A stretch of DNA of 36,857 nt, taken from IMG/VR virus record IMGVR_UViG_3300031772_000127, positions 1-36,857 of that record, one strand, 5' to 3'. The notes under the pieces were generated by a model that did not search any database, had not been told where the DNA came from, and saw only the letters and a list, made by a program, of their open reading frames with translations. The stretch is from a virus. Numbering within the stretch: the first letter of the stretch is position 1; every line of letters starts with the position of its first letter. Position numbers and translations under genes: made by a program. Below, piece by piece: positions 1,525-33,444 of this stretch.

Positions 1525-1546
1525 CTACTCTACCACCCCCTCATGA
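1525..1546 (-). promoter_or_regulatory. Bipartite promoter-like element, copy A
   Basis: On the minus strand it reads TCATGA, GGGGG, TGGTA, GAGTAG. TG-G-TAGAGT resembles an extended -10 (TGnTATAAT). No sigma-70 -35 is visible at the usual distance; the TCATGA palindrome lies eight bases before the -10 hexamer. The predicted start of transcription is near 1520, giving a leader of about 23 bases with a Shine-Dalgarno before the GTG of the phosphoesterase. It is one of four matching copies in the window. Confidence 0.5.
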
Positions 1547-1551
1547 CTTGA

Positions 1552-1764
1552 TCAGGTGAAGTGGAAGATCTTGAGGAGACCGGCGACAGTACCACCGGAC
1601 ATGGCGGCAATTACAGCTACGCGAAGTTTCACGCCCCAGACGCTGTCCTTCAAGAGATCAACTTTCCCTTCGACGCGATCGAGAGTCTTTGCAGTCGTCT
1701 TGCTGCGTTCCTCCAAGCGAGCGAGGCGCGCTGCACAGTCGGGATTGATCGGGCAGGTTTCCAT
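1552..1764 (-). CDS. XhlA-like holin or holin-associated protein
   Basis: The 70-residue product has the layout of the haemolysin XhlA / small phage holin-accessory family: a polar N-terminus, a predicted coiled coil at about residues 12-42 (ARLARLEERSKTTAKTLDRV), and one C-terminal hydrophobic segment at about 46-68. Such proteins sit in the inner membrane and help release the endolysin; no endolysin is seen next to it. The ATG at 1764 is preferred over the in-frame GTG at 1788, because that GTG lies inside the TCATGA-N5-TGGTA element. From that element the mRNA would start only a few bases before the ATG, so translation could be nearly leaderless. The gene follows the tail-tip protein directly. 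Confidence 0.6.
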   Translation of the reverse strand: METCPINPDCAARLARLEERSKTTAKTLDRVEGKVDLLKDSVWGVKLRVAVIAAMSGGTVAGLLKIFHFT

Positions 1765-1772
1765 GACTTTTT

Positions 1773-1794
1773 CTAATATACCACCCACTCATGA
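1773..1794 (-). promoter_or_regulatory. Bipartite promoter-like element, copy B
   Basis: On the minus strand it reads TCATGA, GTGGG, TGGTA, TATTAG. TG-G-TATATT is a good extended -10. The ATG of the holin-like gene begins ten bases after the -10 hexamer, so a transcript from here would have almost no 5' leader. The element lies in the short gap after the tail-tip gene (stop at 1805). Confidence 0.5.
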
Positions 1795-1804
1795 CCCCGA
1801 TTTT

Positions 1805-4720
1805 TCAGAGGAGAATCACCGCATACGCATCCACCGTCGTCCCCGGGGCGTCGACTCGAAGGAAGGTTTCCGACGCCCCCGTTGTAGCCTGCGTCGAGCG
1901 AACCTCGATGGTATCGGCGGCGATGACTCCGCCGAGGTTCCCCGTGCGGTTGCCGGCGGTGATGATGGCAACCCATCCTCCGCCGTTGAGGCGGGCCTCG
2001 ATTGCCGCCCCGGCCCCCATGACCGGGCCGACGGAGAAGGCGTAGGTGCCATTGACGGGCGCCGTGTAACCCACTCCGACCTGGTTCTGGGCAAGGACGC
2101 CCATATTCTGGTCGTTATCCAACTCCGAGGCGGCGATGGCGAACGTGTATCCCAGCGCCTGGAGGGAGGTGAAGACCTCGCTCTGGAGCGTGTGCTGGGA
2201 CGATACTTCCGAGCGCAGGATGGTGGGCATGGCGCCCAGATTCGCCCCCAGGATCTTCGTCCGAGAGAAGAAGACCGACGTCACGTTAGCATAGGACGAC
2301 GCCTCAATTAGGGACGGAGACCCCAAGGGATCCTTGATGATCGACGCCGAATACTCCGTCGTGTTGGCGGCCGGGAAGTCCGCGGCGAAAGTCGAGGCGT
2401 CGGCGCCGAGTCCCTGCACCTCGTCATAGGTCCGGTAGTCGCGACGGCGGAACGTCACCACAACGCCGCGGTCGTCATCGGTCGTCCCGCCGGCCTTCAT
2501 CGTGTCGAGGTTGACCGACGCCTGGTACCGGACGGCATTCAGGTACATCTCAACCGGCGGGTAGGGGCACCGGACGCGGTCGAGCATGGTCAGGGCGACC
2601 GTGGTGGCCTGGACCGACGTGACCTCATTGTCCCGACTCTTTGGTCGAATCTGCCCCTGGACGTTGTACCCCCGGGGGATCGCCACGTCCGACAGTCCCG
2701 CCCCGGCGCAGACGAGGTAGATCGGAGCCGCGATGGCGTGCTCCTGTGGCACGGTGTCCAGGACTCCCCGGTAGACGGTCTGGAAGGAGACGTAGGAGGT
2801 GTGGTTGACCACCGTCTTGACCAGCATGAACTCCGTGCCGCAGAGGACCAGGTTGACCAGGTTCTGGCCCATGTCGGAGGCGGTGGGGTCCGGCGTGAAT
2901 GCCGCGATGATATCGTCCACGGTATCCGGGGTAGCATCGACATCGAAAGTCGTCGTGGGGTTAGCATCTTCGTCGTGAAGCGCCGAACGCAATGCACCGG
3001 CAAGCATGAAGGAGAAGACCTCTCCGGAATCGATCCAGCTCCCGGCGGGAGCGCCGGCGGCGTTGCGCTGGTAGATCTTGTAATCCGTCTCTCCGCTGCC
3101 TTGGGAGCGGCCGGCCGTGAAGAGGCGGTCCACCACCCCTGGATAATCCACGTCGCGCCGCGTCAGGGCGTAGGGCGCCTCCTCGATCACTTGCTGCGTC
3201 GGAGGGAACGCCGTGACTCCCTGCGTCGGGGGCACCCAACTCGTGGAACCGTTCTCTCCATCGAACGGCTGCGCGAACTGGAAGATGTCCTGCGTCAGGG
3301 ACAGCGAGATCCGGCCGTCGTTCATCTTCCCGAAGTCCACCCGGCCGACGCGCATGGGCATCTTCGAGAACCCCAGGCCGGCGTCGGTCCAGGCAACCAC
3401 GTCCCCAGGCTTGAGTTGCCACATGCTGCGGTCCACGACGATCGTGGCCGCGGCGAGCGGCGTCGACAGATACCGGAGCTGACGGGACGCAATGTTCGCC
3501 GCCAGGGTCTCGTTCTTCACGCCGGGGTAGGTGAGCTGGGTCGAGATGAGAGCCCCGAGCTGGATCCGCTGGTTCGCCAGGTCTGCCGCCTGGGCGAAGG
3601 TCTCCTGGTAGTCCAGGGCTCGGGAGGAGAAGGCGATGCGCACCTGGTTGATCGTCTCGTCCCACGTCCCACGGGAGAAGTTGGAGATCTCCATGATGTT
3701 CGTGGAGTCGATCTGCGGGACGGTGTTGATGTTGTACCCGCCCCGGGCGAGGGAGATCTTGAACTGCCCGGTGATGTGGTCGAGGTAAAGGGTTCCGTCC
3801 ATCTGCCTCTGGATCTCCCCCAGAATATCGCTGGCCTCCTTGGGGGTGTCGAGCATGAGCGACATCCCATTCCCTTCCGTATGGAGAGTGTCCGCCGCGG
3901 TCCGGAAGTTGACGAGGTCAACCAGGGACGGGTCGAACCCGAATCCCCAGTCCGTGTCCGTGAGGATCTCGTAGAGGGCTGCAATGGGATTCAGGTCGTA
4001 GGTGTTGACGACGTGCTTGCCGCCGGTGATTGCGAGACCGTTGGGGAATCGACTGAGTTCGAACGCCCAGGGGGCGACCTGGGTGGTGTTGCCGACCCAC
4101 CCGCGATAGGTGACGAAGCAGGTGCCTCGGTAGTTCGGCAAGGGGCTCTGGAAGTTGTAGATGTAATCCATGGCGTCGAGCGTCTGCCCCGCGGCGCCGG
4201 AGTAGATCATCCCATCGCCGTGCATTCCTCCCGAACCGAACTTGTCGCCGCCGAATAGCTTGTCATCGGCGATGAGGATCGGACCGTCGGCATAGGGACC
4301 CGGGAAGGGACCCCACAGCACTTTGTCGTTGATCCAGATTCGGCGCAGGTTGTCCACTGGCCCACGGCAGAGCGCCATCTGGAGTCCCAGGAAGTAGTGG
4401 TACCCAAGGACCATGGTCTCCGAGGACCACAGGCCCGTCTTTACCTTCTTCGACATCGCCTCCTGGTGGAAGTCTCCGTACCAGACGAGGTTCGGCCCGG
4501 CGATCTTCACGGTGCCCCAGAGAATCGGGATGACGCGCCCCTGCTCTGCGGTGGGAAACGAGAAGTCGCCCAAGGAGGCGGGGCGAGCATTCTCCACTCC
4601 GATCTTCGGCCGGAGGAACTCCGACAGGACCATGCAGGTGGCGGCCATGGCGAGAGAGATGGCCGTGAAGATCAGGGCGTCGTCCCAGCCCATGACGGCC
4701 AGGATGGGTGCATAGGTCAT
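1805..4720 (-). CDS. Tail tip / host-specificity protein (gpJ / GTA-type baseplate hub-like)
   Basis: This 971-residue protein is the last and largest tail-tip gene, placed as gpJ is in lambda after the gpL-like gene. The N-terminus has a hydrophobic stretch (residues about 15-33), then an N-terminal block typical of phage and gene-transfer-agent tail proteins (FSFPTAEQGRVIPILWGTVK). Near residue 250 NPIAALYEILTDTDWGFGF matches the conserved tail-tip motif (NPA.iiyeiLTd..WG.G) of the Phage-tail_3 / gpJ group. The C-terminal half probably carries the host-contacting domains. It starts at ATG 4720, two bases after the upstream stop. The precise subfamily is inferred from motifs and position. 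Confidence 0.8.
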   Translation of the reverse strand: MTYAPILAVMGWDDALIFTAISLAMAATCMVLSEFLRPKIGVENARPASLGDFSFPTAEQGRVIPILWGTVKIAGPNLVWYGDFHQEAMSKKVKTGLWSSETMVLGYHYFLGLQMALCRGPVDNLRRIWINDKVLWGPFPGPYADGPILIADDKLFGGDKFGSGGMHGDGMIYSGAAGQTLDAMDYIYNFQSPLPNYRGTCFVTYRGWVGNTTQVAPWAFELSRFPNGLAITGGKHVVNTYDLNPIAALYEILTDTDWGFGFDPSLVDLVNFRTAADTLHTEGNGMSLMLDTPKEASDILGEIQRQMDGTLYLDHITGQFKISLARGGYNINTVPQIDSTNIMEISNFSRGTWDETINQVRIAFSSRALDYQETFAQAADLANQRIQLGALISTQLTYPGVKNETLAANIASRQLRYLSTPLAAATIVVDRSMWQLKPGDVVAWTDAGLGFSKMPMRVGRVDFGKMNDGRISLSLTQDIFQFAQPFDGENGSTSWVPPTQGVTAFPPTQQVIEEAPYALTRRDVDYPGVVDRLFTAGRSQGSGETDYKIYQRNAAGAPAGSWIDSGEVFSFMLAGALRSALHDEDANPTTTFDVDATPDTVDDIIAAFTPDPTASDMGQNLVNLVLCGTEFMLVKTVVNHTSYVSFQTVYRGVLDTVPQEHAIAAPIYLVCAGAGLSDVAIPRGYNVQGQIRPKSRDNEVTSVQATTVALTMLDRVRCPYPPVEMYLNAVRYQASVNLDTMKAGGTTDDDRGVVVTFRRRDYRTYDEVQGLGADASTFAADFPAANTTEYSASIIKDPLGSPSLIEASSYANVTSVFFSRTKILGANLGAMPTILRSEVSSQHTLQSEVFTSLQALGYTFAIAASELDNDQNMGVLAQNQVGVGYTAPVNGTYAFSVGPVMGAGAAIEARLNGGGWVAIITAGNRTGNLGGVIAADTIEVRSTQATTGASETFLRVDAPGTTVDAYAVILL

Positions 4721-4722
4721 GG

Positions 4723-5538
4723 TCAGATTCCAGTGTTAAAAGGATTCTTGAGAGGAACGAAAGGGAATCCGCCGAAGTTGGAGACATTGGCGAACTTGGT
4801 CTGGCAGTCCGCAATCAGGCGGTGCTTGCAGCCGGCCTGGACTATCACGATCTGCCCGGCCGGGGAGACAGAGAATGGGACGAGCAGTGTCAGATCGTCA
4901 CTGTCCTGCGCCGCCACGAGGCGGTAGTCGCCCTGGAAGAGGACGTACCCGCCCACAAAGAAGTCGGATCCACAGGCACCAGCACCCGGGATGGTGAGGA
5001 CGGTGTTGACAACTGTCAACACCGTCAGCATCTTCCTCCACGTAGCGCTCAATTCGGGGACCTGGCACCGGCCGTCATAGAGCATGTGGTTGCAGAGATT
5101 CTGGTACGTCTCGCGAGGGATCAGGCGAACCTGCGCGGCGGTGATCGGCAGGATTTCCATCTGTGCCGAGGCGTAGTTGTCGTTGAACTTTACGGACTGC
5201 ACCTGCCCCTTGAAGGCGATAATGGTCTCCAGGGCCGGGTCGTTGCGGTGCATCTGGTAGAGCGTCAAGGTCGTCCGTTTGCCGGGCACGATGTTGGTGT
5301 AGTTCTGGATGAGCAGGTTGTTCCCCGGGACCGTGACCTGAAGGCGGTCCCCCTGCTTGTCGTCCTTCGATGCCATCAGGTTGTTGCGGCTGATCGGTGT
5401 GGCCGTGAACGTGGCTCCGGCGATCACGACGTCGATCGAGTTCGAGGTGTATCGGTAATAAGTGGATCCGAAGAGGAACTCATACAACTCGATCGGTTGT
5501 CCGGACTCGGCGCTGGTCTCGTAGGCGGCGAAGGTCAT
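4723..5538 (-). CDS. Tail tip protein of the BR0599 / lambda gpL family (likely Fe-S binding)
   Basis: The 271-residue product has the family hallmark C-terminal cysteines: CNHMLYDGRC (C149, C158) and GCKHRLIADC (C237, C245), followed by KFANVSNFGGFPF. In lambda gpL the equivalent four cysteines hold a 4Fe-4S cluster in the tail tip; the same is inferred here. An extra cysteine, C189, lies between the pairs. The start chosen is ATG 5538, three bases after the upstream TAG and behind CTGGAG; a longer upstream reading has arginine-rich shadow composition. A perfect 13-bp-arm palindrome lies inside the gene at 4999-5026. Order gpM-like, gpL-like, gpJ-like supports the assignment. Confidence 0.85.
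   Translation of the reverse strand: MTFAAYETSAESGQPIELYEFLFGSTYYRYTSNSIDVVIAGATFTATPISRNNLMASKDDKQGDRLQVTVPGNNLLIQNYTNIVPGKRTTLTLYQMHRNDPALETIIAFKGQVQSVKFNDNYASAQMEILPITAAQVRLIPRETYQNLCNHMLYDGRCQVPELSATWRKMLTVLTVVNTVLTIPGAGACGSDFFVGGYVLFQGDYRLVAAQDSDDLTLLVPFSVSPAGQIVIVQAGCKHRLIADCQTKFANVSNFGGFPFVPLKNPFNTGI
4999..5026. repeat. Long inverted repeat inside the gpL-like gene
   Basis: The arms GACGGTGTTGACA (4999-5011) and TGTCAACACCGTC (5014-5026) are perfect reverse complements separated by AC. They encode part of the LTVLTVVNTVLTI stretch between the two cysteine pairs. A 13-bp perfect arm is unlikely by chance and would form either a strong mRNA hairpin or an intragenic operator. No U-run follows it. 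Confidence 0.85.
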
Positions 5539-5542
5539 GTGG

Positions 5543-7240: not shown

Positions 7241-7246
7241 GGTGGC

Positions 7247-8239: not shown

Positions 8240-8241
8240 GT

Positions 8242-9528: not shown

Positions 9529-9543
9529 GGATCTATCCTACTA

Positions 9544-12027: not shown

Positions 12028-12028
12028 G

Positions 12029-13183: not shown

Positions 13184-13213
13184 AGAGGGGTTCTCCCGAG
13201 GGGGTCAAGGAAG

Positions 13214-13247: not shown

Positions 13248-13261
13248 GCAGGAAAGAGCTA

Positions 13262-14779
13262 TCAGCAAGCAACAGTCGGCAGGTAGTCGAAGAATACCAT
13301 CAGGAGCGTGTGGTCCTGAGTCGCCAGCGCCTTCGCACCCGAAGCCGCATCCAGGGTCAGCGGCAGGGTGATCGGCTTGTCGATATCGACCTTCGGACGA
13401 CCATCTCCCAGGCAGATCATCGGGATGTCGATCGCGATCCCGTGGTTCGCCTTGGCGAGCATGAAGTCGAGCGTGATGTCACTGTTGCCCCAGACCGCGG
13501 CGACGGCCGCAATGTCGGCGAAGTAGGCCGTCACCGAACCGGCCACGTCGAACGTTCCCGCAGAGCAGTCGAACGCGCCGAGCGTCCCGACGGCCTTGTT
13601 CGGAACGATGTTGTTCTTCAGAGTGATCTTCATGTCCGTGAGGAAGGCGAAGAGCGCCGTCGCCGACCCGCAGACGGACATTTTGATCCGGCTGAAGTCC
13701 GAGGACGTGTTGAAGGCGTCACTGTCAGCGAGCGTCGGGCGGGTGGCGGTCTTCGGGCCAGCCGATCCGAGAACCTGCTCAACACCGATCCCGACGAAGG
13801 ACATGTCGAGGGTCACCTTGTCAGCCGACGGGATGTTGAGCGTCATCTCGTTCGGAATGGCCCCGATGAGGTACTCCGCCTGGATGTCGCCCGGCGCGCT
13901 GGTATCCGGCGCCCCCAATTGGCGCTCGAGCTGGTAGCTGCGCCGAACGATCGACGTGCCGGACTCGTTCTTCAGGACGCGGCCAAGATAGATGCGGATC
14001 GTCTTGACTCCGCCATTGTCGATCAGCATGACGCCCTGCGTCTTGTCGAACTCCATGGCATGAATGACAACGGACCGGACGCGGGCATATCCATTGTTTC
14101 CAGCCACTGCGAAATTTTCCAGAGCCGCATCACCACCGATATAGACCCACTCTCCCGGAATCACGCCCAATTGAGTCAGGTCCTTGGCAATGGTCACCAG
14201 TTTCGGATAGGTACCAGAGACGTCAACCGAACAATCACCGGCCGCGAACTCGTGCCCGACACGAGAAATGGTTCCAGTCTGGACCGCGGCCTTAGTAAGG
14301 GCAGTCGTCACAATGACTGACGCCGCGCCGCTGGACACCACGACTTTGAGGCCGTTGTTGCCGGCGTCAGAGAACCCCTTGGCCCAAAGAAGATCTTTGG
14401 CATAGAAGGCAGTACCTCCGGCGGCCGGCTCGTAGTCCTCGTCCCCGCCGGCCTGCTTCACGCTGGCGATGGCCAACTCGGCCTTCCGCCGCATATCTGC
14501 GAAGAAGAATCCCTGGAGCAGTTCCTGGACGTTGTCCTGGGTCAGGTCGATTCCGAACCCGCCAGAGGCGTCGAGGTCAACGGTGGTGCCCTTCTTCTTC
14601 TGCCGAGACAGGTTGATCGGACGCCGAGCGACGGTCTTGATTGATCCGCCGAAGTCCGCGAAGCCGTTCGGGTCAAGAGAATAGAAGAACGGACCTCCAG
14701 GGAGGACCCCGATGCTCGTCTCCTCCGCCCACGCGAGTCCGACCGAGTTGCTGTCCTGTTTCAACGCTGGCGTAACCAT
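13262..14779 (-). CDS. Major tail tube protein
   Basis: A 505-residue protein immediately upstream of the tail chaperone pair and downstream of two tail-terminator-like genes, the usual place for the tube protein. It starts EETSIGVLPG...FYSLDPNGFADFGG, similar to the N-termini of large siphovirus tube proteins, followed by beta-rich sequence with an inserted region. The family usually forms stacked hexameric rings. At 505 residues it is larger than lambda gpV, suggesting an additional surface domain. ATG 14779 follows AAGGAG. Identification rests on position and general character. Confidence 0.75.
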   Translation of the reverse strand: MVTPALKQDSNSVGLAWAEETSIGVLPGGPFFYSLDPNGFADFGGSIKTVARRPINLSRQKKKGTTVDLDASGGFGIDLTQDNVQELLQGFFFADMRRKAELAIASVKQAGGDEDYEPAAGGTAFYAKDLLWAKGFSDAGNNGLKVVVSSGAASVIVTTALTKAAVQTGTISRVGHEFAAGDCSVDVSGTYPKLVTIAKDLTQLGVIPGEWVYIGGDAALENFAVAGNNGYARVRSVVIHAMEFDKTQGVMLIDNGGVKTIRIYLGRVLKNESGTSIVRRSYQLERQLGAPDTSAPGDIQAEYLIGAIPNEMTLNIPSADKVTLDMSFVGIGVEQVLGSAGPKTATRPTLADSDAFNTSSDFSRIKMSVCGSATALFAFLTDMKITLKNNIVPNKAVGTLGAFDCSAGTFDVAGSVTAYFADIAAVAAVWGNSDITLDFMLAKANHGIAIDIPMICLGDGRPKVDIDKPITLPLTLDAASGAKALATQDHTLLMVFFDYLPTVAC

Positions 14780-16505: not shown

Positions 16506-16697
16506 CTACCTCTTCGGAGCGTTCTTGTCAGTGCCCCCTGGCATCGTGACGCCGCGAGGACATGGGCGGGGGACCAGCATGTCACTCGCTCGCATCTGTT
16601 TTCCGGTAGGTCCCGGTCCGGTTGGGTCATTTGTCGCTTCGTAGACAGGGGTCCCCCGCCACGACTTCCCAACCGGACGGAACCTCACGCAGCCCAT
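16506..16697 (-). CDS. Small protein in connector block, unknown function
   Basis: A 63-residue basic protein starting MGCVRFRPVGKSWRGTPVYE. The ATG at 16697 overlaps the TAA of the previous gene (TAAAATG), supporting translation coupling; a longer upstream reading is arginine/serine-rich shadow. No domain is recognised. Proline and glycine are abundant (NDPTGPGPTGKQ). It lies between the capsid-adjacent proteins and the adaptor. Confidence 0.55.
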   Translation of the reverse strand: MGCVRFRPVGKSWRGTPVYEATNDPTGPGPTGKQMRASDMLVPRPCPRGVTMPGGTDKNAPKR

Positions 16698-16698
16698 T

Positions 16699-17268
16699 TT
16701 AGACCTGGAGTGGAATGGTCGCCGGAGGATCGTTCGCCGGAATGACGAGGGCCACGGCAAGAATGTCGCCGACCGCCCCATCGTGGGTGAGGGCGCCGAT
16801 CAGACTGGGCACCGGGCGGACGCACGTCGCGGGAATCGCCTCGACGGAAATCTTCCGATTCCCGATACCAGCGCCGGCAATCTTCAAATTGGGAGTGGCG
16901 TAAGCAGCACCGACGAAAGCGCCACCTTCCGCCGCAATGAGCGCGGCAAGTCCGTCGCCGATATCGTTCACACCATCTTTTCCGACTCCGACGTACGTGA
17001 TGTCGAGCGTATCCGGACCGCTGAGGGGGTCCGTCACGGGGTCACGTCCCACCCGGATCCGGTACGCGAACCCCTTGTAGTCGGCAGCGATGGGGTCAGC
17101 AGGATCAAAGAAAGTGATATCCGCCGCGTCCCAATCGCCGTCACCATCCTGAGCCGCTTGGGCAACCTCAAGCGCCTGGGCGATGTTGTCCGCGTCGATG
17201 ACGTGACCAACGAGGCCATTCTTCTTCGGGTTGGCCTTTGCGTTTCCGACGACAAACTTCTGAGCCAT
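16699..17268 (-). CDS. Capsid-adjacent structural protein, one-domain paralogue
   Basis: A 189-residue protein, second gene after the capsid. Near residue 45 it has DGDGDWDAADITFFDP, then FAYRIRVG, LDITYVGVGKDGVNDIGDGL and NLKIAGAGIGNRKISVEAIPA. The same order occurs in the preceding gene (DGDADWTDTDIT, WKFEIRVS, VASYTGVAYV, DTLQQIGVGL), so the two share a domain. Position suggests a head decoration or cement protein, or a head-tail accessory; no homologue is recognised. ATG 17268 follows AGGAAG. Confidence 0.6.
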   Translation of the reverse strand: MAQKFVVGNAKANPKKNGLVGHVIDADNIAQALEVAQAAQDGDGDWDAADITFFDPADPIAADYKGFAYRIRVGRDPVTDPLSGPDTLDITYVGVGKDGVNDIGDGLAALIAAEGGAFVGAAYATPNLKIAGAGIGNRKISVEAIPATCVRPVPSLIGALTHDGAVGDILAVALVIPANDPPATIPLQV

Positions 17269-18318: not shown

Positions 18319-19269
18319 TCAGTTCGTAACGCCGGTGAGCTGACCGACGCCCAGCTCGCTGAAGACGGCGAATCCGCAATACCACTTCACGCGGGTAATG
18401 GACTCGTCCGCGTCCTCCGCCTCTCCGACCTGCACGACATTGATACCCGCCGCCTTCGAGGCAGTGAGGCCCGCAATGCCGTGGGTCCGGGAGCCGTCGT
18501 CGAACGTGCCGGCATAGACCGACGCGGTGTTGGGCGTTCCGCCCTGGACCACGTTCGTCAGGATGTAGTCGTTCCGGAAGATGGGAATCCCGCGGTAGGC
18601 AGGAACCTTGTTCCCGGAGGGCAGTTCAACGGTGTCGTTGATCGATGCCCCGCCGAGCGCACGGAGCAGCGCATTGAAGCTCCGCAGCGTCCGGGCGTGC
18701 ATGAGGATGTAGTCGACCGCCCCATCCTTGTCCGAGATGGTGTCGATCAACGTGTCCAGGTCAACGAACGCCAGAACCTGTCCACCCACGGCCGGAGTGA
18801 CCTTCTGGCCAGCCGGCATGAGCTTGTCCAGGCCCGAGAACTGGAAATTCGCACCCGTTCCCGTGATGAGCATGGTCTGGAACTGACGGCCCAGGCTCTT
18901 CGCCTTCGAGGCGACCTGAACGGCGCGCTGGTCGTTGCCATCGCTGGACCGGGTAGCCTGGATCATGCCGTTCACGTTGGCATCGCCAATGATCGTGGTG
19001 AGCATGGAGGTAACCGGAGTGAAGGTGGCCGCATTCTTCGCGGTCTTGCCGGCGGCGACATCGAGCGCATCAGTGATGGCCGTGCCGACGCCCGCCACAC
19101 CGACCCCGCCGAGCACCAGCTCGCGGTTGTAGGCAAGGGCGTTCCCGTCGATACCATCGAAGGGAAGCATGTCGAACATGCGATTGACGGTGACGACGTT
19201 CTCGATGACACCGGCGACCAGATCATCCTGTGCCAAGTAGCCGGACATCTGCAGCGTAACAGACGGCAT
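18319..19269 (-). CDS. Major capsid protein (HK97 fold)
   Basis: A 316-residue protein directly after the scaffold gene. ATG 19269 lies behind a strong AGGAGGTG; an upstream in-frame start has no such site. Sequence features fit capsid proteins of the HK97 fold: NRMFDMLPFDGIDGNALAYN at the N-terminus, a VDYILMHARTLRSFNALLRAL helix with the following GIPIFRNDYILTN, and KWYCGFAVFSELGVGQLTG at the end. Several phages with DUF4055 portals have capsids of this type and size. No protease domain is fused; cleavage would need a separate enzyme. Confidence 0.85.
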   Translation of the reverse strand: MPSVTLQMSGYLAQDDLVAGVIENVVTVNRMFDMLPFDGIDGNALAYNRELVLGGVGVAGVGTAITDALDVAAGKTAKNAATFTPVTSMLTTIIGDANVNGMIQATRSSDGNDQRAVQVASKAKSLGRQFQTMLITGTGANFQFSGLDKLMPAGQKVTPAVGGQVLAFVDLDTLIDTISDKDGAVDYILMHARTLRSFNALLRALGGASINDTVELPSGNKVPAYRGIPIFRNDYILTNVVQGGTPNTASVYAGTFDDGSRTHGIAGLTASKAAGINVVQVGEAEDADESITRVKWYCGFAVFSELGVGQLTGVTN

Positions 19270-19405
19270 GGACACACCTCCTGAAAGGTTGGTGATTAAA
19301 ACAATCCGAAGAAACCTGCCCACAGTTCCTTCGAATCACTCTCAGGAAGGGCACAACAGCCGTCACGCCTTACGGATCACCCGTCTGCGTGTTCGATCTA
19401 CTTCA

Positions 19406-19414
19406 AGAATACCA
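19406..19414 (-). promoter_or_regulatory. Possible extended -10 promoter upstream of the capsid gene
   Basis: In the gap between scaffold and capsid the minus strand reads TGGTATTCT, matching the TGGTA core of the bipartite element but without TCATGA upstream. It could give extra capsid transcript. The match is short, so the call is weak. Confidence 0.25.
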
Positions 19415-19430
19415 CACGAAATCTCCGCCC

Positions 19431-20222
19431 TTAGATTCCGGCCTTCCGAAGGCCGGCGGAGATCCTATCGATTGACGACAACTTCGCTCCGGCAGGGGGG
19501 ATACGAGCGCCGGTAGACCCCGGGGGAGTGCCGCCGCCGCGAGGAACCTCCGACTTGAAGAGCGGCGCGTACTTGGGATTCCGCTTCATGTCGGCGATCA
19601 GTTCGGCAGGGGACATGGGCTGCGCCGTCGCTCCGTTGACCCGCTGGGAACCCTCGGCGTCCACCACGACCGCACGGAACCTGCCGTCCTCCTGAGAGGT
19701 CCGCATGAACGCCTTCGCGAAGGGCAGTACGAGGTCGGCGTCAACCGACTGATCCCCGATCGCAGACCGGAGAGCGTTGTCGATCAGGATCGACTCAAGC
19801 TGCGTGGTCAGGTTCTTGATCGTCCCGTCCTTGGTGCCGAGGTCCTTGGCATGGGCCGCCTTGATATCGGCCTTGATCTTCTCCAGATCCAGCTTCGCGT
19901 CCTTGCCCTTGGCAAGTTGCTCCTGGAATTCGTCGATCTTCGCCTGGATTCCCGACTTGATCTCCTCGGGAGACGTTCCGAACTCAGTGAGGGGTGACAG
20001 GTCCACAGCCCTGCCTTTCAGGTCCGTGGAGATCTTCCGCTCGGCCCTCAGTGCCTTGTTCAGGCCGACGATGGCCTCGACAGCGCCCTTCACGGCACTG
20101 TCGTCGCTCCGGAGTTTGAAGACCCCCTTCTCGGCGGGATCCTCGGCGAACAGGGGACGGAACTGATCGGGAACGATATTGATGTCCTTGACAACGGCGT
20201 TGGTTTCGAAATCGAAGGCCAT
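19431..20222 (-). CDS. Capsid scaffolding protein
   Basis: A 263-residue protein just before the capsid gene. The middle (about residues 85-150) is lysine/glutamate-rich and predicted coiled coil (KSGIQAKIDEFQEQLAKGKD, DLEKIKADIKAAHAKD), followed by QLESILIDNALRSAIGD and a flexible proline-rich tail. This matches small phage scaffold proteins that drive procapsid assembly and then leave. ATG 20222 follows AAGGAG. No protease signature is present. Confidence 0.82.
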   Translation of the reverse strand: MAFDFETNAVVKDINIVPDQFRPLFAEDPAEKGVFKLRSDDSAVKGAVEAIVGLNKALRAERKISTDLKGRAVDLSPLTEFGTSPEEIKSGIQAKIDEFQEQLAKGKDAKLDLEKIKADIKAAHAKDLGTKDGTIKNLTTQLESILIDNALRSAIGDQSVDADLVLPFAKAFMRTSQEDGRFRAVVVDAEGSQRVNGATAQPMSPAELIADMKRNPKYAPLFKSEVPRGGGTPPGSTGARIPPAGAKLSSIDRISAGLRKAGI

Positions 20223-20316
20223 GTTTCTCCTTGACTGAAATCACTTCAGCCAGCCGGGGGGTCACCCCGCCAGCAGGATAGTTGAGAGAACGGTAACACT
20301 CCGGGAGTTGTTGTGC

Positions 20317-20481
20317 TTATTTCTTGTGCGCGTCCACCTCCCTGTGTCCTTGGTGCTTGAAATACTCCACCTGCCGCTCGTGGTTCTTGGCAGCCTCCTT
20401 CGAGTCGAAGGTGCCCAGGTTCTTCTGGCCGTCCTTCGACATCAGACGCCACTTGTTCTCACCCGGTAGTTTTCGAATCAT
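20317..20481 (-). CDS. Small conserved phage protein, unknown function
   Basis: A 54-residue basic protein beginning MIRKLPGENKWRLMSKDGQK and continuing NLGTFDSKEAAKNHERQVEY. The LG.fds.e.A..he..V.yfK pattern is familiar from small proteins of phages and bacteria, with no established role. Its ATG overlaps the stop of the protease gene (ATGA) and has a GGAG-type site upstream. Confidence 0.6.
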   Translation of the reverse strand: MIRKLPGENKWRLMSKDGQKNLGTFDSKEAAKNHERQVEYFKHQGHREVDAHKK

Positions 20482-21149
20482 GAATGCGCCTCCAGGAAAG
20501 CCCTCACGCGCTCCGGCGGAGAGTAGTATCCGAGATAGGTGACGCGTTTCCACCAACTCATGACGCCCGCTATGTACCAGACTCCACCATCCTCCACCAT
20601 AAGGGCTCCGCCGGAATTTCCCGGATAGATGTCCGAGGAAGATCCCGCGAAAGGCTTGTCAATAGGACCCCCATGGACGTCCAGCGCGATGATGTGCCCC
20701 TTAGTGGACATGGGATCGAGAAGCATGGGGCATCCCACGGCATACACTTCCTGGAACAGGTGAAGTGACCCCTGATAGATGGGTGCCGCACTGGCCCCCG
20801 GGACGTACTCCATGATCAGGATCGCAAGGTCCTCGTCTTCACTAATCGCCTCGATGCAAGCGTGTATAGAGATGCGGTCTACGACATGACCCGCCTCGTC
20901 GTAGGTGAACAAGTCAACAGTCACACCATCATCCACGCAGGCACTCACGACATGCGCGGCCGTCAGGACCCAGGTTCCCCTATCCGGAGACGAGGAGATC
21001 ACCGTACCTGAACCGCCATCGTCTCCATGGGTAATTCGGACGCAGGGAGAAATGAGTTGTTCAACCAGGAATTGCTCGGTCGAGACCTTCGGACTACATG
21101 CACTGAGGAGTCCAGAGAACAGCGCAAGCACGAAGATCCGGTTCAACAT
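20478..21149 (-). CDS. Trypsin-like serine protease with lipoprotein signal peptide
   Basis: The 223-residue product has an N-terminal signal peptide ending in a lipobox (LSAC, C18) and a trypsin/DegP-type domain. The triad is readable: H66 in TWVLTAAHVVSAC, D107 in SEDEDLAIL, S179 in YPGNSGGALMV. Secreted and lipid-anchored, it would act in the cell envelope rather than inside the procapsid. It nevertheless sits between MuF and scaffold, where maturation proteases are usually found. Possible roles are envelope modification in lysogens, superinfection exclusion or virion entry; none is shown. ATG follows TAGGAGA. Confidence 0.85.
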   Translation of the reverse strand: MLNRIFVLALFSGLLSACSPKVSTEQFLVEQLISPCVRITHGDDGGSGTVISSSPDRGTWVLTAAHVVSACVDDGVTVDLFTYDEAGHVVDRISIHACIEAISEDEDLAILIMEYVPGASAAPIYQGSLHLFQEVYAVGCPMLLDPMSTKGHIIALDVHGGPIDKPFAGSSSDIYPGNSGGALMVEDGGVWYIAGVMSWWKRVTYLGYYSPPERVRAFLEAHS

Positions 21150-22317: not shown

Positions 22318-22320
22318 GGA

Positions 22321-24167: not shown

Positions 24168-24169
24168 GA

Positions 24170-24682: not shown

Positions 24683-24689
24683 TGGTCCC

Positions 24690-26284: not shown

Positions 26285-26291
26285 GTTGATC

Positions 26292-27746: not shown

Positions 27747-27749
27747 CGT

Positions 27750-28517
27750 CTATTTACTCACCGCCGACTTGTCGATAACAATGGCAGAGCAGATAAAAGA
27801 CTTCGATGCGCGGATATCGGTCTTGGTGGCCTTGCTCTCTACAGAAGTGATGGACACCCCGAGATCCAGGGATTTCCAGGCGGTTGAATGCTGGCGTTTC
27901 TTGAGCAGGATGAGAGGTAGATTGTCCTGCCTTGCCTCATAGACTGGGGCCACGTATTTCCCCGCCATGTCATCGCCAAAATCGTCTACTTTCAACGCAA
28001 GAAAGTGCTTCAATTCGTGGTCTGAGAACGGCCATAGTATGTGGTCTGCTTTCTTAACGTGAAGTTCGTCCTCTACCAGCGGCCAGAAACTATCCAGGGT
28101 CTTTACCGAAGTATCTATAGTCCCACCGTACCAGACTTCCCTACCCTTATCGCCGAATATACAGTGGCCTGGATGTCCAAGTTGCCGGGCCAGATATTCT
28201 GTTACATAAATATGCTCTTTTTTCTTATTATTCTTTTCGCCAAACTCTTCCTTAGCGCCTGTGAGAATGTTCGTTCTTAGAACCGTCTTTTCATCGAGAC
28301 GTTCAAACCTAAATTGATGGGTGGATTCTCTGTACTTCTGCGCAAGAGTATCGAGAGGTCTCCAACCGTCTTTATTGAGCCCGTAATTGAAGACGTGACA
28401 GAGATGATCCAAATGGACTTGGCCAATCCGGCGATCCGTCAAAGCAACTACGATATCCCCATCCTGATATGCTGGAGCGGGTCCAACCGTACCGATTTTT
28501 AAAAGTAATTCAGCCAT
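27750..28517 (-). CDS. Hypothetical phage protein following TerL
   Basis: A 255-residue protein beginning MAELLLKIGTVGPAPAYQDG, with DIVVALTDRRIGQVHLDHLC and a polar middle (KEEFGEKNNKKKEHIYVTEY). It separates TerL from the fibre cassette. The early part reads like a structural or adaptor module, but no family is recognised. ATG 28517 lies behind ACGGA. Codon use is slightly more A+T-rich than in TerL. Confidence 0.55.
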   Translation of the reverse strand: MAELLLKIGTVGPAPAYQDGDIVVALTDRRIGQVHLDHLCHVFNYGLNKDGWRPLDTLAQKYRESTHQFRFERLDEKTVLRTNILTGAKEEFGEKNNKKKEHIYVTEYLARQLGHPGHCIFGDKGREVWYGGTIDTSVKTLDSFWPLVEDELHVKKADHILWPFSDHELKHFLALKVDDFGDDMAGKYVAPVYEARQDNLPLILLKKRQHSTAWKSLDLGVSITSVESKATKTDIRASKSFICSAIVIDKSAVSK

Positions 28518-28531
28518 TATCCGTATACGTC

Positions 28532-29998
28532 TTAGAAGTTACTGACTCCCATCGACCGGACCTTCTCCCGCAGCCGATATCGCATTTCGTCCGCGATGTG
28601 GTCCTCGGTTCGCGTGTCCACGTCGTCCATGTCTGTCTTGCCCCGGGGGAGGACCGGCACGGTCCGGAAGAAGTCCTCACATCGCTCGCAGATGAAGAGT
28701 CCGGGTGTTTCCCGGATTCCTTCCTTTCCAGGGATTGCCCCTTTGAGGAGTTTCCGCACCTGCTCCCATCCGTGCTTTCTGCTCCCAGGACGCTTGTCAG
28801 CGCGAGTCCACCTCACGCCTTTCCTAAGCATATCACCAGCGACACTCTTCCCCGGTTCGTAGTCGTCGAAAACGCTGGTGTCTGCGGGTCCCGGGCGCAC
28901 GCGAGCGTCGATCCCCCAGTCCGCTTGTTTCTCTCGAATGCCCTCGGCGATCTGCGTCGACAGGAGACGCACACCCTCGTTGGGGCGTTCGGTGCAGCCG
29001 TACCACTCGGCGATCCGGATGATGTCCCCGCGAACGGCGCCTACCTTCAGCGTGCCGACCATCATCGGCTCTCCATTCGACTCCGCCCACCAGCCGACGC
29101 TGAAAGGTTTAGATTGCCCGTGGTCATAGCTTCGGTTCAGTTTCCACCCGCGGGGAATCTCAGAGAAGACGAGGTTCGGGATCCGATGGTGCGCAGGACT
29201 CCATACGTCGTCGAACATGCCGCCGGCGACGATGTCCCAGTCATCGTTGAGCCAAGCTCTCAGTTCCGCCGGGCTGCGGGCAGCGGCCTTGATCTTATCC
29301 ACATAGTCCGGTTCTGCAGACAAAAGAACCTGGTTCTCTTCAAGAAGAGATCTAATTGCCACCCTGGACAAACTATCCTCAGTGACTACTCGTCCCTCGA
29401 CTTGTCCAGGAGGAATGGGAAGCTTGAATCGAGATTTAACAAAATTGTGTCCAGGACCGTATGGATTAGTTGTAGCCCGGTATTTCCTCGGCATGCCTGG
29501 ACGAGAGGATCTGGAGCAGGCCATCATGACCTTGTAGCACTTATCATCAGGCCAGGTTGTAAGTTCCTCCCAACCAATCCACGGATATGCTGCACCGTGG
29601 TAGTTCCAATAATCATCCTCTTTCTCCATGTAGGAAAGGCGGAGATTCTCTCCAGTCATGAAGACCCAGGTGAACTTCGACTCGTTGAAGATGGCATCGG
29701 GGAAAATGCGAGGGAACCACTTCTTTGTTTTCGTGATGACATCCGAAAGTTGCGGGAATGTCTGCCGAAAAAGGATTCCTCTCCACTCAGCGCCGTACCC
29801 CTGCCCAACATGCTGAGCGAAATCCATGATGAGAGCGTCAGTCTTTCCGCCGCCCCTCGGACCCTCCAGCAGACACTCAAAATGTGGACACCGAAGAAAA
29901 GCGTCCTGCGCCGGCGGCTGTGGTGCCCAAATGAATTTCTGGCCCCGAGCGAATGGAATGAGTCCCTCTTCTGTCTTCTGCCACTGAACGATGTTCAA
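28532..29998 (-). CDS. terL: Terminase large subunit
   Basis: The 488-residue protein has an ATPase Walker A, GPRGGGKT (residues 46-53), a Walker B-like YPWIGWEEL (138-146), the RATTNPYGPGHNFVKSRF motif C region, and a C-terminal nuclease domain opening RSYDHGQSKPFSVGWW with later acidic residues (DDVDTRTEDH). It is the DNA-packaging motor and cutter. It starts at TTG 29998 overlapping the methylase stop (CTTGA), behind GGAATGG. A small subunit is not recognised nearby. Confidence 0.93.
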   Translation of the reverse strand: MNIVQWQKTEEGLIPFARGQKFIWAPQPPAQDAFLRCPHFECLLEGPRGGGKTDALIMDFAQHVGQGYGAEWRGILFRQTFPQLSDVITKTKKWFPRIFPDAIFNESKFTWVFMTGENLRLSYMEKEDDYWNYHGAAYPWIGWEELTTWPDDKCYKVMMACSRSSRPGMPRKYRATTNPYGPGHNFVKSRFKLPIPPGQVEGRVVTEDSLSRVAIRSLLEENQVLLSAEPDYVDKIKAAARSPAELRAWLNDDWDIVAGGMFDDVWSPAHHRIPNLVFSEIPRGWKLNRSYDHGQSKPFSVGWWAESNGEPMMVGTLKVGAVRGDIIRIAEWYGCTERPNEGVRLLSTQIAEGIREKQADWGIDARVRPGPADTSVFDDYEPGKSVAGDMLRKGVRWTRADKRPGSRKHGWEQVRKLLKGAIPGKEGIRETPGLFICERCEDFFRTVPVLPRGKTDMDDVDTRTEDHIADEMRYRLREKVRSMGVSNF

Positions 29999-30696
29999 GG
30001 TAAGATCACCATTCCTTCCAGCCGAGCCTGCTTCTTGCCGTTGGGACGCGAGAGCCGACTAACTATCTCCTTGCCAGGATAGAACCGTTCAAGCACGTCA
30101 GCGTACTCGAAGACCACCACGGCCTCCGCCACTTCCACAATCTTGTCGACCGCATTCCAAAAGACCCGGTAGTCCTCAACATGGCAGTAAGGGACATGCG
30201 AGTTCTTGAATGGGGGATCGAGAATGACGACGGCGTCGACGTACTCCTGCACAGGGACCTTCGTCCAGTCGCCGCAGGTGACCCGTGGACGCAACTCCCG
30301 CCAGTGGGCGAGCGCCTCCTCATAGGCCGACCGAAGCATGACAGCCTCGATGCGCTTGTCGGGAGGCACGTTGAACCCGCCATCCATCTTGTGCCGGAAG
30401 ATCCCGGCGTAGGCGAACCGCTGCAGGCAGAAGGACCACTTCCACCAGTCGGACCGCTTGCGCTTCTCGTAGTAGTCGGCGAGCGTGAAAACTTCCGGCA
30501 CCTCTTGCTGGTCGAAGTGGGACAGGATATGGACGAGGACCGAGTCGATTTCGTTCCAGAGCGGATCGGGGCCGGCCAACGCGAAACTGATTGCGGCAGA
30601 TCCCGCGAAAGGCTCGACCATTCGCTTGCCCTTGAACTGGGAGAGGCGAGAGACCCACCGGCCTTTCCCCCCGAGGTAGGACGGAAGTATTTTCAC
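29995..30696 (-). CDS. D12-class DNA adenine N6-methyltransferase (Dam-like)
   Basis: From GTG 30696 the 233-residue protein reads VKILPSYLGGKGRW, the usual start of the D12 family. It has the SAM-binding PFAGSAA (29-35) and catalytic DPPF (160-163). The GTG overlaps the previous stop (GTGA) and follows GGCGGAAG; a longer reading upstream has shadow composition. It probably methylates phage DNA at adenine, protecting it from host nucleases or timing packaging, since it is translationally coupled to TerL. The target site is unknown. Confidence 0.88.
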   Translation of the reverse strand: MKILPSYLGGKGRWVSRLSQFKGKRMVEPFAGSAAISFALAGPDPLWNEIDSVLVHILSHFDQQEVPEVFTLADYYEKRKRSDWWKWSFCLQRFAYAGIFRHKMDGGFNVPPDKRIEAVMLRSAYEEALAHWRELRPRVTCGDWTKVPVQEYVDAVVILDPPFKNSHVPYCHVEDYRVFWNAVDKIVEVAEAVVVFEYADVLERFYPGKEIVSRLSRPNGKKQARLEGMVILP

Positions 30697-30998
30697 TTCT
30701 TCCGCCCGCCTCGCAAGGCTGCGGCGATGGCCATCGGGATCGCCATGAGGAACTGCTTGCGACGACGACGCCTCCTCTCGGGAATTACGGCCTTGATCTT
30801 CTTGACGGTCTCGAAGACCGCAGCACGCCGCACCAGCTCCTGGCGCTGAAGCAAGGCAACAGCCGTGGGCACCGAGAAGTTCTTCTTCTCGGGACGCGGG
30901 GTGGCGCAGTAGAGGCGCCGCAGGGCCTTCATGCCGCTGCGGGTGATCGTGGTGCCGGCGGTGGCCTTCCGAATCCATTTGACGGTCTTCTCGTTCAT
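30693..30998 (-). CDS. Small basic protein; possible small terminase or DNA-binding protein
   Basis: A 101-residue highly basic protein with an ERRRRRRKQF cluster and a short hydrophobic run (LMAIPMAIAAALRGGRKK). Position two genes before TerL would suit a small terminase subunit, but no HTH is evident, so function is open. ATG 30998 follows GGAAGGAG and overlaps the upstream stop. Confidence 0.5.
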   Translation of the reverse strand: MNEKTVKWIRKATAGTTITRSGMKALRRLYCATPRPEKKNFSVPTAVALLQRQELVRRAAVFETVKKIKAVIPERRRRRRKQFLMAIPMAIAAALRGGRKK

Positions 30999-31267
30999 CC
31001 TGCGTGCTCCTTCCAGTCCTCGCCCTCATCGTCTTCCTGACTGAGGGACTGGGTTAAGTCCTTCGTAAGTTCCGAACCAACGATCTTGGACAGTCCGAGG
31101 ACGGCATACGGACTGCCGCCGTAGTAATATGTGAGTCCTTCCTCTGTCGTTCCTATTCCAGTGATGTAAGCGAACAGGGTCACGTCCACGCGCTTCCGCA
31201 GCTCGTGAAACAACTCCTCGATACTCGCCTCGGGGAGAAGAGGGATGGGGTCTTCTGTCTCGTTCAA
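30995..31267 (-). CDS. Hypothetical small acidic phage protein
   Basis: A 90-residue protein starting at TTG 31267 behind GGAGGTGG, overlapping the stop of the lipoprotein gene. It contains IEELFHELRKRVDVTLFAYI and GLTYYYGGSPYAVLGLSKIV and ends in an acidic tail. Similar small proteins occur in many environmental phages; role unknown. Confidence 0.55.
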   Translation of the reverse strand: MNETEDPIPLLPEASIEELFHELRKRVDVTLFAYITGIGTTEEGLTYYYGGSPYAVLGLSKIVGSELTKDLTQSLSQEDDEGEDWKEHAG

Positions 31268-31572
31268 AATTCCACCTCCACTCCAATGCTCCCCGACCAC
31301 CGGACCTCGGGAATCGTGGCCTCAAGTTGCCCGCGCAAGCGGAGCCGATCGATGCTCCATGTGAACGCCGTCTGGCCGATCGGAATCGCGTCCCCGGAGG
31401 CCGCGTCGTAGCGGTACCCCGGCCCCGCATCGACCATGATGTTCTCGAACGGCCGCAGGCGAGACCCTCCGGTTGAGTCGAGATAGTGGCTTGGATAGCC
31501 GTACTCGACCCGTGCGAAGCGGGTGCAGCCTGCCGCGAGGAGTGTCAGGAAGAGGATAGCGGCGCAACGCAC
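31264..31572 (-). CDS. Small lipoprotein
   Basis: From GTG 31572, behind a strong GGAGGTG, the 102-residue protein has a short basic start, a hydrophobic core and lipobox LAAGC. The mature part alternates polar and hydrophobic residues (FTWSIDRLRLRGQLEATIPE, SGSIGVEVEF), like an amphipathic beta-strand protein. It would be anchored in the envelope. It is too beta-rich for a typical Rz1-like spanin. Envelope modification or exclusion is possible. The start lies within the end of the HTH gene. Confidence 0.6.
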   Translation of the reverse strand: MRCAAILFLTLLAAGCTRFARVEYGYPSHYLDSTGGSRLRPFENIMVDAGPGYRYDAASGDAIPIGQTAFTWSIDRLRLRGQLEATIPEVRWSGSIGVEVEF

Positions 31573-31769
31573 GGCACCTCCGAGGTGGACCTGACCTTCA
31601 CCGAAGCCATCCACTGGTCGAGGTCCACCCGGGAGTACCGCACATTGCGGTGACTGATCTTCGAGAATGGCGGACCGCCTCCGCTCACCCGCTTATGGTC
31701 GAGAAGGGACCGCGAGACATTGATATATGCAGCGGCCTCACGGGGAGATAGGTAGGATTGCTCTGTCAC
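31545..31769 (-). CDS. HTH_17 excisionase/AlpA-like DNA-binding protein, first gene of the late operon
   Basis: A 74-residue protein with the MerR-like helix-turn-helix of the excisionase family: YLSPREAAAYINVSRSLLDH, then GGGPPFSKISHRNVRYSRVD and LDQWMAS. GTG 31769 is fixed by GGAGG eight bases upstream; the ATG codons just before it run into a stop. It lies behind bipartite element D and ahead of the packaging and head genes. A role in switching on the operon or in excision is inferred. A related protein is encoded at 33229-33417. Confidence 0.8.
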   Translation of the reverse strand: MTEQSYLSPREAAAYINVSRSLLDHKRVSGGGPPFSKISHRNVRYSRVDLDQWMASVKVRSTSEVPCVAPLSSS

Positions 31770-31818
31770 ATCATGATCCTCCGTGGAAGGTTGTCGTGGT
31801 AGTGAACTGCGTCTGCGT

Positions 31819-31840
31819 CTACCCTACCACGGGGTCATGA
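31819..31840 (-). promoter_or_regulatory. Bipartite promoter-like element, copy D (late operon)
   Basis: On the minus strand it reads TCATGA, CCCCG, TGGTA, GGGTAG. It sits between the integrase terminator and the first gene of the 31-kb structural operon, and would start transcripts near 31812 with a leader of about 45 bases. No normal -35 is seen at the proper distance. TCATGA is embedded in GACTCATGACC. Confidence 0.5.
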
Positions 31841-31845
31841 GTCAG

Positions 31846-31878
31846 AAAAAAGGCCCGAGGTGATTAGCCTCGGGCCTT
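31846..31878 (-). terminator. Rho-independent terminator of the integrase transcript
   Basis: AAGGCCCGAGG (31850-31860) pairs perfectly with CCTCGGGCCTT (31868-31878) around a seven-base loop; on the minus strand the stem is followed by six Ts (31851-31846). On the plus strand no U-run follows, so it serves minus-strand transcripts. It insulates the integrase from the late operon. Confidence 0.9.
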
Positions 31879-31896
31879 CAGATCGCGTCTTGTCAG

Positions 31897-31930
31897 GTCC
31901 GGTCCCGTCCAGTCCGGTCCTATCCGGTCG
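31897..31930. repeat. Short direct repeats downstream of the integrase gene
   Basis: GTCCGGTCC occurs at 31897-31905 and 31912-31920 and, varied, as ATCCGGTCG at 31922-31930; TCGCGTCT flanks them at 31883 and 31933. They lie between the integrase stop and its terminator. They may be protein-binding sites or slippage products. Confidence 0.5.
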
Positions 31931-31960
31931 AGTCGCGTCTATTCACGACACGTCGCGAAA

Positions 31961-33127
31961 CTATTTCAACTTCTTCAAAATAAAATCGGTGACGGCTTCT
32001 TGGCAAGTCCTCAAATGTTCAAGGTCCTGTCGGATATACCCCGCCGTCACGCTGCCCTTCGGCGGGCGATGGTTTGTGAGGACATCGATGTCATAGGAGG
32101 AAAGTCCCACTTCGGCACAGGCGGTTGAAAATGAATCCCTCAATCGGTGCGGCGACTGGCTCCGCTTGCGCCCCCAGCGCCGCAGGACGATCGGGATCAC
32201 CTTCCCGCCCCTGCTCTTCGTCGGGAAGACCCAGCCCTCATCCTGATCCTGGCTCTCTTCCTTGCGCCGGCGGAGCAGCTCCACGGTGTAGGTGGAGAGG
32301 GGAATGGTGAAGGCACGGTCCTCGCCGCCCTTGGGGCAGGGGCGATGGAGCGTCTTCTCGACGAGGTCGAGATCGTCCCATCTGATCGTCGCGGCATCCT
32401 CGCTGCGAAGTCCTGTGAGGAGAACCACATATAGGTAGTCACGGAGGACCGGGGAGAGGGCGTCGACCGTTTCCCGCCACGCCGGGAGGTTCGCCCAGGC
32501 GATCGGCTCCTGGCGCCGCTCGGCCTTGTTCCAGTCGATGCCGATGGTCGGGTTGGCCGCCGGGAGGTCATGGCACTTCAGCGCGACGTTGTAGATGGCC
32601 CTGAAGTACCGGAAGACGATGTTGGCGGCGTAGGGGCCTTTCTTCCCTGTGATCTGGCGGTGTCGGGTCCGGCACTCGTCCTTCGTGATCTCGGCGAGCG
32701 GACGGGGGAGCCAGTCCCGGAGAAGCCGGCCGGTGTCCTCCTGGACGTCCGCGATCGTCGCATCACTACCGCCCTTCGAGCGCAGGCGTGCGATGTACTC
32801 GTTGATGGCCTGTGAGAAGAGGATGCCCCGCGCCTCCTGCCGGCGGCGCTCGGCGTAGGGATCCTCGCCCTTATCCAGCCCCACGATCAGCTCGGAGGCG
32901 TACTTTCTGGCGGCGTCAGGCGTCCACGGCCCGTACCGGCCGATCTTGCGGCGCCTGTCCTTCTTCTGGAGGACAAAGGTCTTCGCCACGATGCCGTTGA
33001 TCGGATCTGGTCTCCCTACGAGGAGTCCGAATCCCCCAAGTGTTGGATCCCAATAAAGTTCCTGCGTCTTGATCGTGGGCGGGTCGATGGCGTCGATGTT
33101 CTTCTTGGTCAAAATCAGCGAGGGCAT
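31961..33127 (-). CDS. int: Tyrosine integrase
   Basis: A 388-residue tyrosine recombinase of the P4-like type. The N-terminal arm-binding/DUF4102-like part (DPTLGGFGLLVG, RRRKIGRYGPWTPDAAR) and core-binding domain precede the catalytic domain with R241 (LLTGLRSEDA), H327 and R330 (SPHRLRDSF), H353 (TNHRPP) and nucleophile Y364 (TAGYIRQD). It integrates the phage at a host tRNA gene whose 3' end lies at 33644-33671. ATG 33127 lies behind GAGGAGG, and a good sigma-70 promoter with an operator-like palindrome precedes it. Confidence 0.95.
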   Translation of the reverse strand: MPSLILTKKNIDAIDPPTIKTQELYWDPTLGGFGLLVGRPDPINGIVAKTFVLQKKDRRRKIGRYGPWTPDAARKYASELIVGLDKGEDPYAERRRQEARGILFSQAINEYIARLRSKGGSDATIADVQEDTGRLLRDWLPRPLAEITKDECRTRHRQITGKKGPYAANIVFRYFRAIYNVALKCHDLPAANPTIGIDWNKAERRQEPIAWANLPAWRETVDALSPVLRDYLYVVLLTGLRSEDAATIRWDDLDLVEKTLHRPCPKGGEDRAFTIPLSTYTVELLRRRKEESQDQDEGWVFPTKSRGGKVIPIVLRRWGRKRSQSPHRLRDSFSTACAEVGLSSYDIDVLTNHRPPKGSVTAGYIRQDLEHLRTCQEAVTDFILKKLK

Positions 33128-33163
33128 GTGTTCCTCCTCATATCCAAATAGAAACTACATAGA

Positions 33164-33192
33164 AAGATACCAGGATACAGACCTGGAGTCAA
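33164..33192 (-). promoter_or_regulatory. Integrase promoter with palindromic operator in the spacer
   Basis: On the minus strand TTGACT and TATCTT are separated by 17 bases, with TG one base before the -10. The spacer contains CCAGG-N7-CCTGG, a dyad at 33170-33186 that could bind a dimeric regulator and block the promoter. Confidence 0.7.
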
Positions 33193-33228
33193 GTGAGGCT
33201 GTATCTATAGACCAGATATATGTAACCG

Positions 33229-33417
33229 TCATCTCAGGACTCGGCGCTGCTCGGCCCAAAGATGGAGATCATCCATCCGGTATTTTACGATCTTGCCTCC
33301 GAACTTGAAATACTTGGGGCCAGACCCGTCCGCTCGACGAAGAACGAGATACCGTTTCGACACACCAAGAAGATTTGCCGCTTCTTGTGGGGACAAATAG
33401 CGCTTGAGGTCTTCCAT
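33229..33417 (-). CDS. HTH_17 excisionase-like protein, upstream of the integrase
   Basis: A 62-residue protein: YLSPQEAANLLGVSKRYLVL forms the helix-turn-helix, then GSGPKYFKFGGKIVKYRMDD and LHLWAEQRR. It matches the excisionase (HTH_17) family and is likely Xis or an AlpA-like activator of int. The ATG at 33417 is chosen; the GTG at 33438 lies inside element E. No Shine-Dalgarno precedes the ATG; if E is the promoter, the transcript would start at or next to the ATG and be leaderless. Confidence 0.75.
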   Translation of the reverse strand: MEDLKRYLSPQEAANLLGVSKRYLVLRRADGSGPKYFKFGGKIVKYRMDDLHLWAEQRRVLR

Positions 33418-33422
33418 GTCCA

Positions 33423-33444
33423 CGATAATACCAGGCACTCATGA
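33423..33444 (-). promoter_or_regulatory. Bipartite promoter-like element, copy E
   Basis: On the minus strand it reads TCATGA, GTGCC, TGGTA, TTATCG. TG-G-TATTAT is the best -10 of the four copies. The ATG of the HTH gene begins seven bases after the hexamer, the distance expected for a transcription start. Confidence 0.5.

Follow-up and report, generated by a model that had tools for sequence, protein, structure and literature searches.

Gene Order and the Repeated Element

The window, by which the whole stretch of viral DNA under analysis is meant, comprises 36,857 nucleotides of a single strand (IMG/VR record IMGVR_UViG_3300031772_000127, positions 1 to 36,857). Open reading frames and family matches were combined by hand into a gene map, which has approximate edges and leaves 1,606 bases (4.4% of the window) as intergenic DNA. 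Three records belong to the same phage group: IMGVR_UViG_3300037137_002670 (G001), IMGVR_UViG_3300037137_002295 (G002) and L173, a capsid fragment. The phage records are incomplete. The phage looks temperate, as there are an integrase, an RDF-like protein and an attP-like tRNA 3′ half. The latter, with CCA, occupies 33627-33671 and is probably that of tRNA-Gln(CTG). No host was matched through this attP core in two scans of 84,980 genomes.

An earlier note on this DNA had described four copies of TCATGA-N5-TGGTA, that is, 11 fixed bases at fixed spacing, upstream of putative transcription units. Four exact matches were indeed found, at 1531-1546, 1779-1794, 31825-31840 and 33429-33444, all on the minus strand (Table 1). 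The described placement is borne out as well, since all four fall into the 4.4% of intergenic DNA, run in the direction of the neighbouring genes and lie just upstream of a gene, none being within one. TANNNT follows in each copy and three of the four run on into TANNNTAG. The reported NNNTAG tail stands as far as the hexamer is concerned, while TAG is present in three copies only and the copy at 33423-33444 reads TATTATC instead.

Table 1. Copies of the element and associated features of the window.
Feature	Position	Strand	Description
Copy 1	1525..1546	minus	TCATGA-ggggg-TGGTAGAGTAG; immediately past the 70-aa protein stop; phosphoesterase gene downstream
Copy 2	1773..1794	minus	TCATGA-gtggg-TGGTATATTAG; ~10 nt past the tail-protein stop, 8 nt ahead of the ATG of the 70-aa protein
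Copy 3	31819..31840	minus	TCATGA-ccccg-TGGTAGGGTAG; putative promoter of the second HTH_17 gene unit
Copy 4	33423..33444	minus	TCATGA-gtgcc-TGGTATTATC; putative promoter of the HTH_17 (RDF/excisionase-like) gene, ATG 33417
Metallo-phosphoesterase gene, after copy 1	295..1497	minus	phrog_20266, E=1.4e-97
70-aa protein gene, after copy 2	1552..1764	minus	one hydrophobic stretch; holin role unproven
HTH_17 (winged HTH, RDF-like) gene	31545..31769	minus	first gene past copy 3
HTH_17 (RDF/excisionase-like) gene, after copy 4	33229..33417	minus	Pfam HTH_17; PDB RdfS 8dgl, E=4.5e-6
Intrinsic terminator after the integrase gene	31850..31878	minus	11-bp perfect stem; −23.3 kcal/mol, z=−5.35
Integrase promoter-like sequence	33164..33192	minus	TTGACT-17-TATCTT, TGG before −10; without TCATGA

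Stop codons lie within ~10 bases ahead of copies 1 and 2, and the strong terminator ends ~10 nt before copy 3, which marks a unit boundary there. The unit behind copy 3 begins with the second HTH_17 gene, followed by methyltransferase and terminase genes. This HTH_17 gene and the one after copy 4 are paralogues with 38% identity. The HTH/integrase unit assigned to copy 4 was right about the HTH_17 gene, but the integrase has a promoter-like sequence of its own. The holin-like label given to the 70-aa protein is weak, because no holin family matched it.

Relatives and Distribution

A motif search in related phages had been put forward as a check, and its outcome was divided: a close relative supplied a further copy, and remoter ones were without the element. 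G002 carries both copies of the phosphoesterase end and a fifth exact copy at 19052, TCATGACCCCGTGGTACAGTAG. The DNA around the fifth copy has no blastn similarity to the window, and an ATG follows ~50 bp downstream. This copy is the only independent confirmation of the element, and brings the independent copies to five. Its N5 (CCCCG) is that of copy 3, and both have GAC-repeat DNA alongside; one may thus be a paralogue or duplicate of the other. The homologous copies in G002 and G001 were rejected as footprint evidence because, around the elements, the window does not differ from G002, as over 1066-1799.

Several side observations concern these records. Two blocks of the window, 1066-1799 and 31776-32234, are fully identical to G002 and G001 and end close to copies 2 and 3, which places mosaic breakpoints near these boundaries. 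G001 retains copy 3; its sequence changes exactly at the edge of the attP-like site and lacks the stretch corresponding to 33218-33626, which contains copy 4 and the greater part of the excision-type gene. The protein encoded after the fifth copy (G002 19123-19806) has an unusual composition for a phage: an N-terminal hydrophobic segment, a coiled-coil-like middle and, at the C-terminus, a domain of ribosomal L7/L12 (E=7e-15). Degenerate GAC repeats with a period of 5 bp (NGACN) occur at window 31865-31959 (minus strand) and at G002 16676-16755, 18917-19001 and 20307-20381. They reach 23/24 matches over 8 units, lie mostly in or beside intergenic gaps in a single orientation relative to genes, and two of the four arrays stand just upstream of TCATGA copies.

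Among terminase, capsid and PolA relatives, one exact match was found in about 1.76 Mb, which is not beyond chance. PaMx11, SN1, KL1 and PAE1 contain zero exact copies and 0-4 matches with one mismatch each (control, 0-2). The absence from remoter relatives indicates that the element is specific to the phage group. A 14-base pattern gave 118 matches in IMG/VR, mostly single-copy, and these look like chance for the most part; among the stretches fetched, the phage's own group alone repeats the pattern with a promoter-like core.

Anatomy of the Predicted Promoters

TGn stands directly before TANNNT in all five copies, giving TGGTANNNT, which is an extended −10; AG often comes next. The core itself behaves as a promoter-like signal, as it is intergenic (by its first base) in 7 of 14 occurrences versus 1 of 13 for TGHTANNNT, with A, C or T before TA. 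An eighth case, at 33774 on the plus strand, lies one base past the gene-map edge and upstream of a lipoprotein ATG. A good −35 is absent from four of the five copies (at most 3/6 matches), while copy 4 has a possible one, TTGGCA, at 19 bp.

With a transcription start assumed 7 nt past the TANNNT hexamer, TCATGA would occupy −26..−21. This predicted position is between those of the −35 and the −10, and not at the −35 that TCATGA was proposed to replace. From the same predicted starts, copy 4 would yield a leaderless or near-leaderless mRNA beginning at or 1 nt before its ATG, and copy 2 would give a leader of a few nt. Shuffled sequences fold at least as well as the leaders behind copies 1-3, and an RNA hairpin element was dismissed.

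The promoter-like sequence of the integrase provides an internal contrast, with a −35 that matches 5/6 at 17 bp. Its ordinary architecture, lacking TCATGA, suggests a host sigma70 of the ordinary type. Three intergenic TGGTANNNT sites that have no TCATGA are close to the attP-like site, and the TGGTA sites there may be integrase arm sites instead, the arm consensus of the IntS integrase being TGKTGGTATC (PMC11963761). The same identity was rejected for the TCATGA copies, as distances of 1.8 to 32 kb separate three of the four from the attP-like site, and the fifth copy belongs to the early region of G002.

Chance and Rival Explanations

The expected count of TCATGA-N5-TGGTA in dinucleotide shuffles is 0.02, against four seen, which reproduces the chance figure first given; it had been calculated for a pattern picked post hoc, and copy number alone proves nothing as free dyads recur in shuffles. 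A search for any 6+5 or 5+6 pattern with a gap of 0-20 and at least four copies returned ~80 dyads in the real window and 0-26 per shuffle (8 shuffles), and TCATGA alone is not over-represented (15 observed versus 11.6 expected). That such patterns arise in seven of the eight shuffles speaks for a chance dyad, one among many possible ones, at otherwise unrelated promoters. Nevertheless, this explanation is scarcely credible. The probability that all four copies of a dyad are intergenic and co-directional is about 2e-7 per dyad, the element overlaps an extended −10, and an exact fifth copy stands in non-homologous DNA of a relative. In addition, 4 of the 14 TGGTANNNT sites have TCATGA before them at an unvarying offset, with a binomial probability of 3e-11 for this hexamer and offset only, or ~1e-6 to 1e-5 by estimate when 4,096 hexamers and some 30 offsets are allowed for. 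The significance of the element rests on its context and the fifth copy, not on copy count. Post hoc counts of gapped patterns mislead, and it is placement and the independent copy in the relative that decide.

Two rivals accept the element as genuine and differ in the protein bound to it. The promoter spacer is a classic position for repressor operators, and TCATGA sits there. Accordingly, the copies could be operators of a phage immunity repressor, which would bind TCATGA under RNA polymerase and keep lytic and excision genes off in the lysogen. The temperate appearance of the phage makes this a serious rival, and there is a precedent in RdfS, which represses its own promoter by binding over −35/−10 (PMC11963761). 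We still regard it as unlikely: for a dimeric repressor, a site with six conserved bases is short, a lysogen does not normally need an operator at each late sub-unit, and no HTH_3-type match above cut-off was obtained in three records, which are incomplete. The other rival takes the copies as loading sites of the Q/AlpA/GafZ type, where a protein binds TCATGA, boards the polymerase and reads through terminators. The AlpA binding element is GGGACG-N5-GGTA with its hexamer at −25..−20 (PMC7969949; PMC9371919) and thus GGTA at −14..−11; here the predicted positions are about −26..−21 for TCATGA and −14..−11 for GGTA. GafZ, in the Caulobacter GTA, has a palindromic element within this spacer (PMC11150451), and late genes are among those served. 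TCATGA falls between −35 and −10, as elements of the Q/AlpA type do, by predicted position only. Against this, the hexamer differs in sequence from that of AlpA and is offset by 1 bp, sites only 248 bp apart are unlike a single late promoter, and no −10-like pause common to the four copies was seen by eye in +1..+25 of the predicted starts. Two scans predicted no same-strand terminator within a few hundred bases past copies 1-4, save for a weak one at the integrase promoter downstream of copy 4, although the scanner also missed the strong terminator before copy 3. Nor was there a Phage_antitermQ (PF06530) match in the window, G001 and G002, which are incomplete records; AlpA and Q proteins in any case share no sequence homology (PMC9371919). 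Taken together, loading of an antiterminator is quite unlikely.

Proposed Regulation and Candidate Regulators

The reading we prefer, with a probability of about 0.6, is of a single phage-specific class of sigma70-type promoters, represented by the four copies, in which TCATGA is read by a putative phage-encoded regulator. As one and the same element serves four gene units and a fifth in a relative, these genes are probably switched by one putative virus-encoded protein. The set of phage-specific promoters with an extended −10 and no −35, proposed in the earlier note, is well supported by position, strand, core, the fifth copy and the absence from remoter relatives. Host RNA polymerase would read the extended −10 core without a −35, and TCATGA would be the recognition hexamer of a DNA-binding regulator encoded by the phage. 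This regulator would jointly turn on, or set the timing of, the late unit and the genes for excision, the small membrane protein and the phosphoesterase; in G002 an early-region gene would come under its control as well. We infer the start sites, the protein reading TCATGA, its phage origin and its sign; since the promoters lack a −35 and include those of late genes, we favour positive control.

The two paralogous HTH_17 proteins are the best candidate regulators available, with putative binding, as each is encoded directly after a copy and is related to RdfS. RdfS binds its own promoter with no clear motif (PMC11963761), which weakens the HTH_17 proteins as readers of a sharp hexamer. HTH_17 had no match in the available part of G002, a part that excludes the homologous regions. 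Among other types of regulator, a phage sigma factor was sought without a Sigma70_r4 match, and a T7-type RNA polymerase without a PF00940 match in three records, where control genomes were equally silent. A bolder reading is quite unlikely too: a multi-promoter regulon of processive antitermination or activation in a temperate siphophage, where one small HTH protein would recognise a 6-bp palindrome in the spacer of extended −10 promoters, and which would take in excision, late, lysis-like and early units alike.

Comparison with Known Systems

The closest arrangement is that of the AlpA promoters of Pseudomonas aeruginosa (alpB, PA0807; PMC7969949, PMC9371919), which likewise combine a hexamer in the spacer, N5 and a GGTA overlapping the −10. 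Here, however, the hexamer is another one and its position is shifted by 1 bp, there is no −35, and the search for an AlpA/Q-like protein, a shared pause and a clear terminator downstream found none. With GafZ (Caulobacter GTA, PMC11150451), the element shares a palindrome between −35 and −10 and genes of the capsid/terminase type; GafZ has a longer near-perfect palindrome, GCGCCCG-CTGGCGC, at one promoter, whereas 6 bp at four promoters are seen here. By analogy, it is possible that the element works like the AlpA/GafZ loading elements; membership is not claimed. The arrangement is of a known type, while the sequence is new.

The stoperators of cluster A mycobacteriophages, to which the element had been likened, are numerous (as many as ~30 per genome), spread genome-wide and stop elongation (PMC6550527, PMC9283540). 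They too are repeated sites mostly in a single orientation relative to transcription. The likeness does not go further, as there are only 4-5 exact sites here, all at promoters and none in a gene, and a stoperator system was rejected on these grounds. The start-associated sequences (SAS) of cluster K are also repeated, group-specific elements upstream of genes in one orientation; they typically lie 3-7 bp before the start codon and a translational role was proposed for them (PMC3203893). The TCATGA element is instead promoter-like, at a variable distance of a few to ~50 nt from the start, and this identity was also rejected.

If the promoter-class reading is true, the element would provide a sequence handle by which metagenomes could directly reveal the regulon and master regulator of a phage group that is uncultured. 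Regulators that recognise a short hexamer in the spacer of promoters without a −35, in the geometry of AlpA and GafZ, would gain a test case as well.

Other genes were noted in passing. A trypsin-like protease gene with a lipoprotein-type signal (window 20478-21149) sits inside the head gene cluster. The window contains two adenine-methyltransferase-like genes (D12, MT-A70) at 29995-31029 and 34067-34735, and G002 encodes a Mom-like DNA modification protein at 13559-14098.
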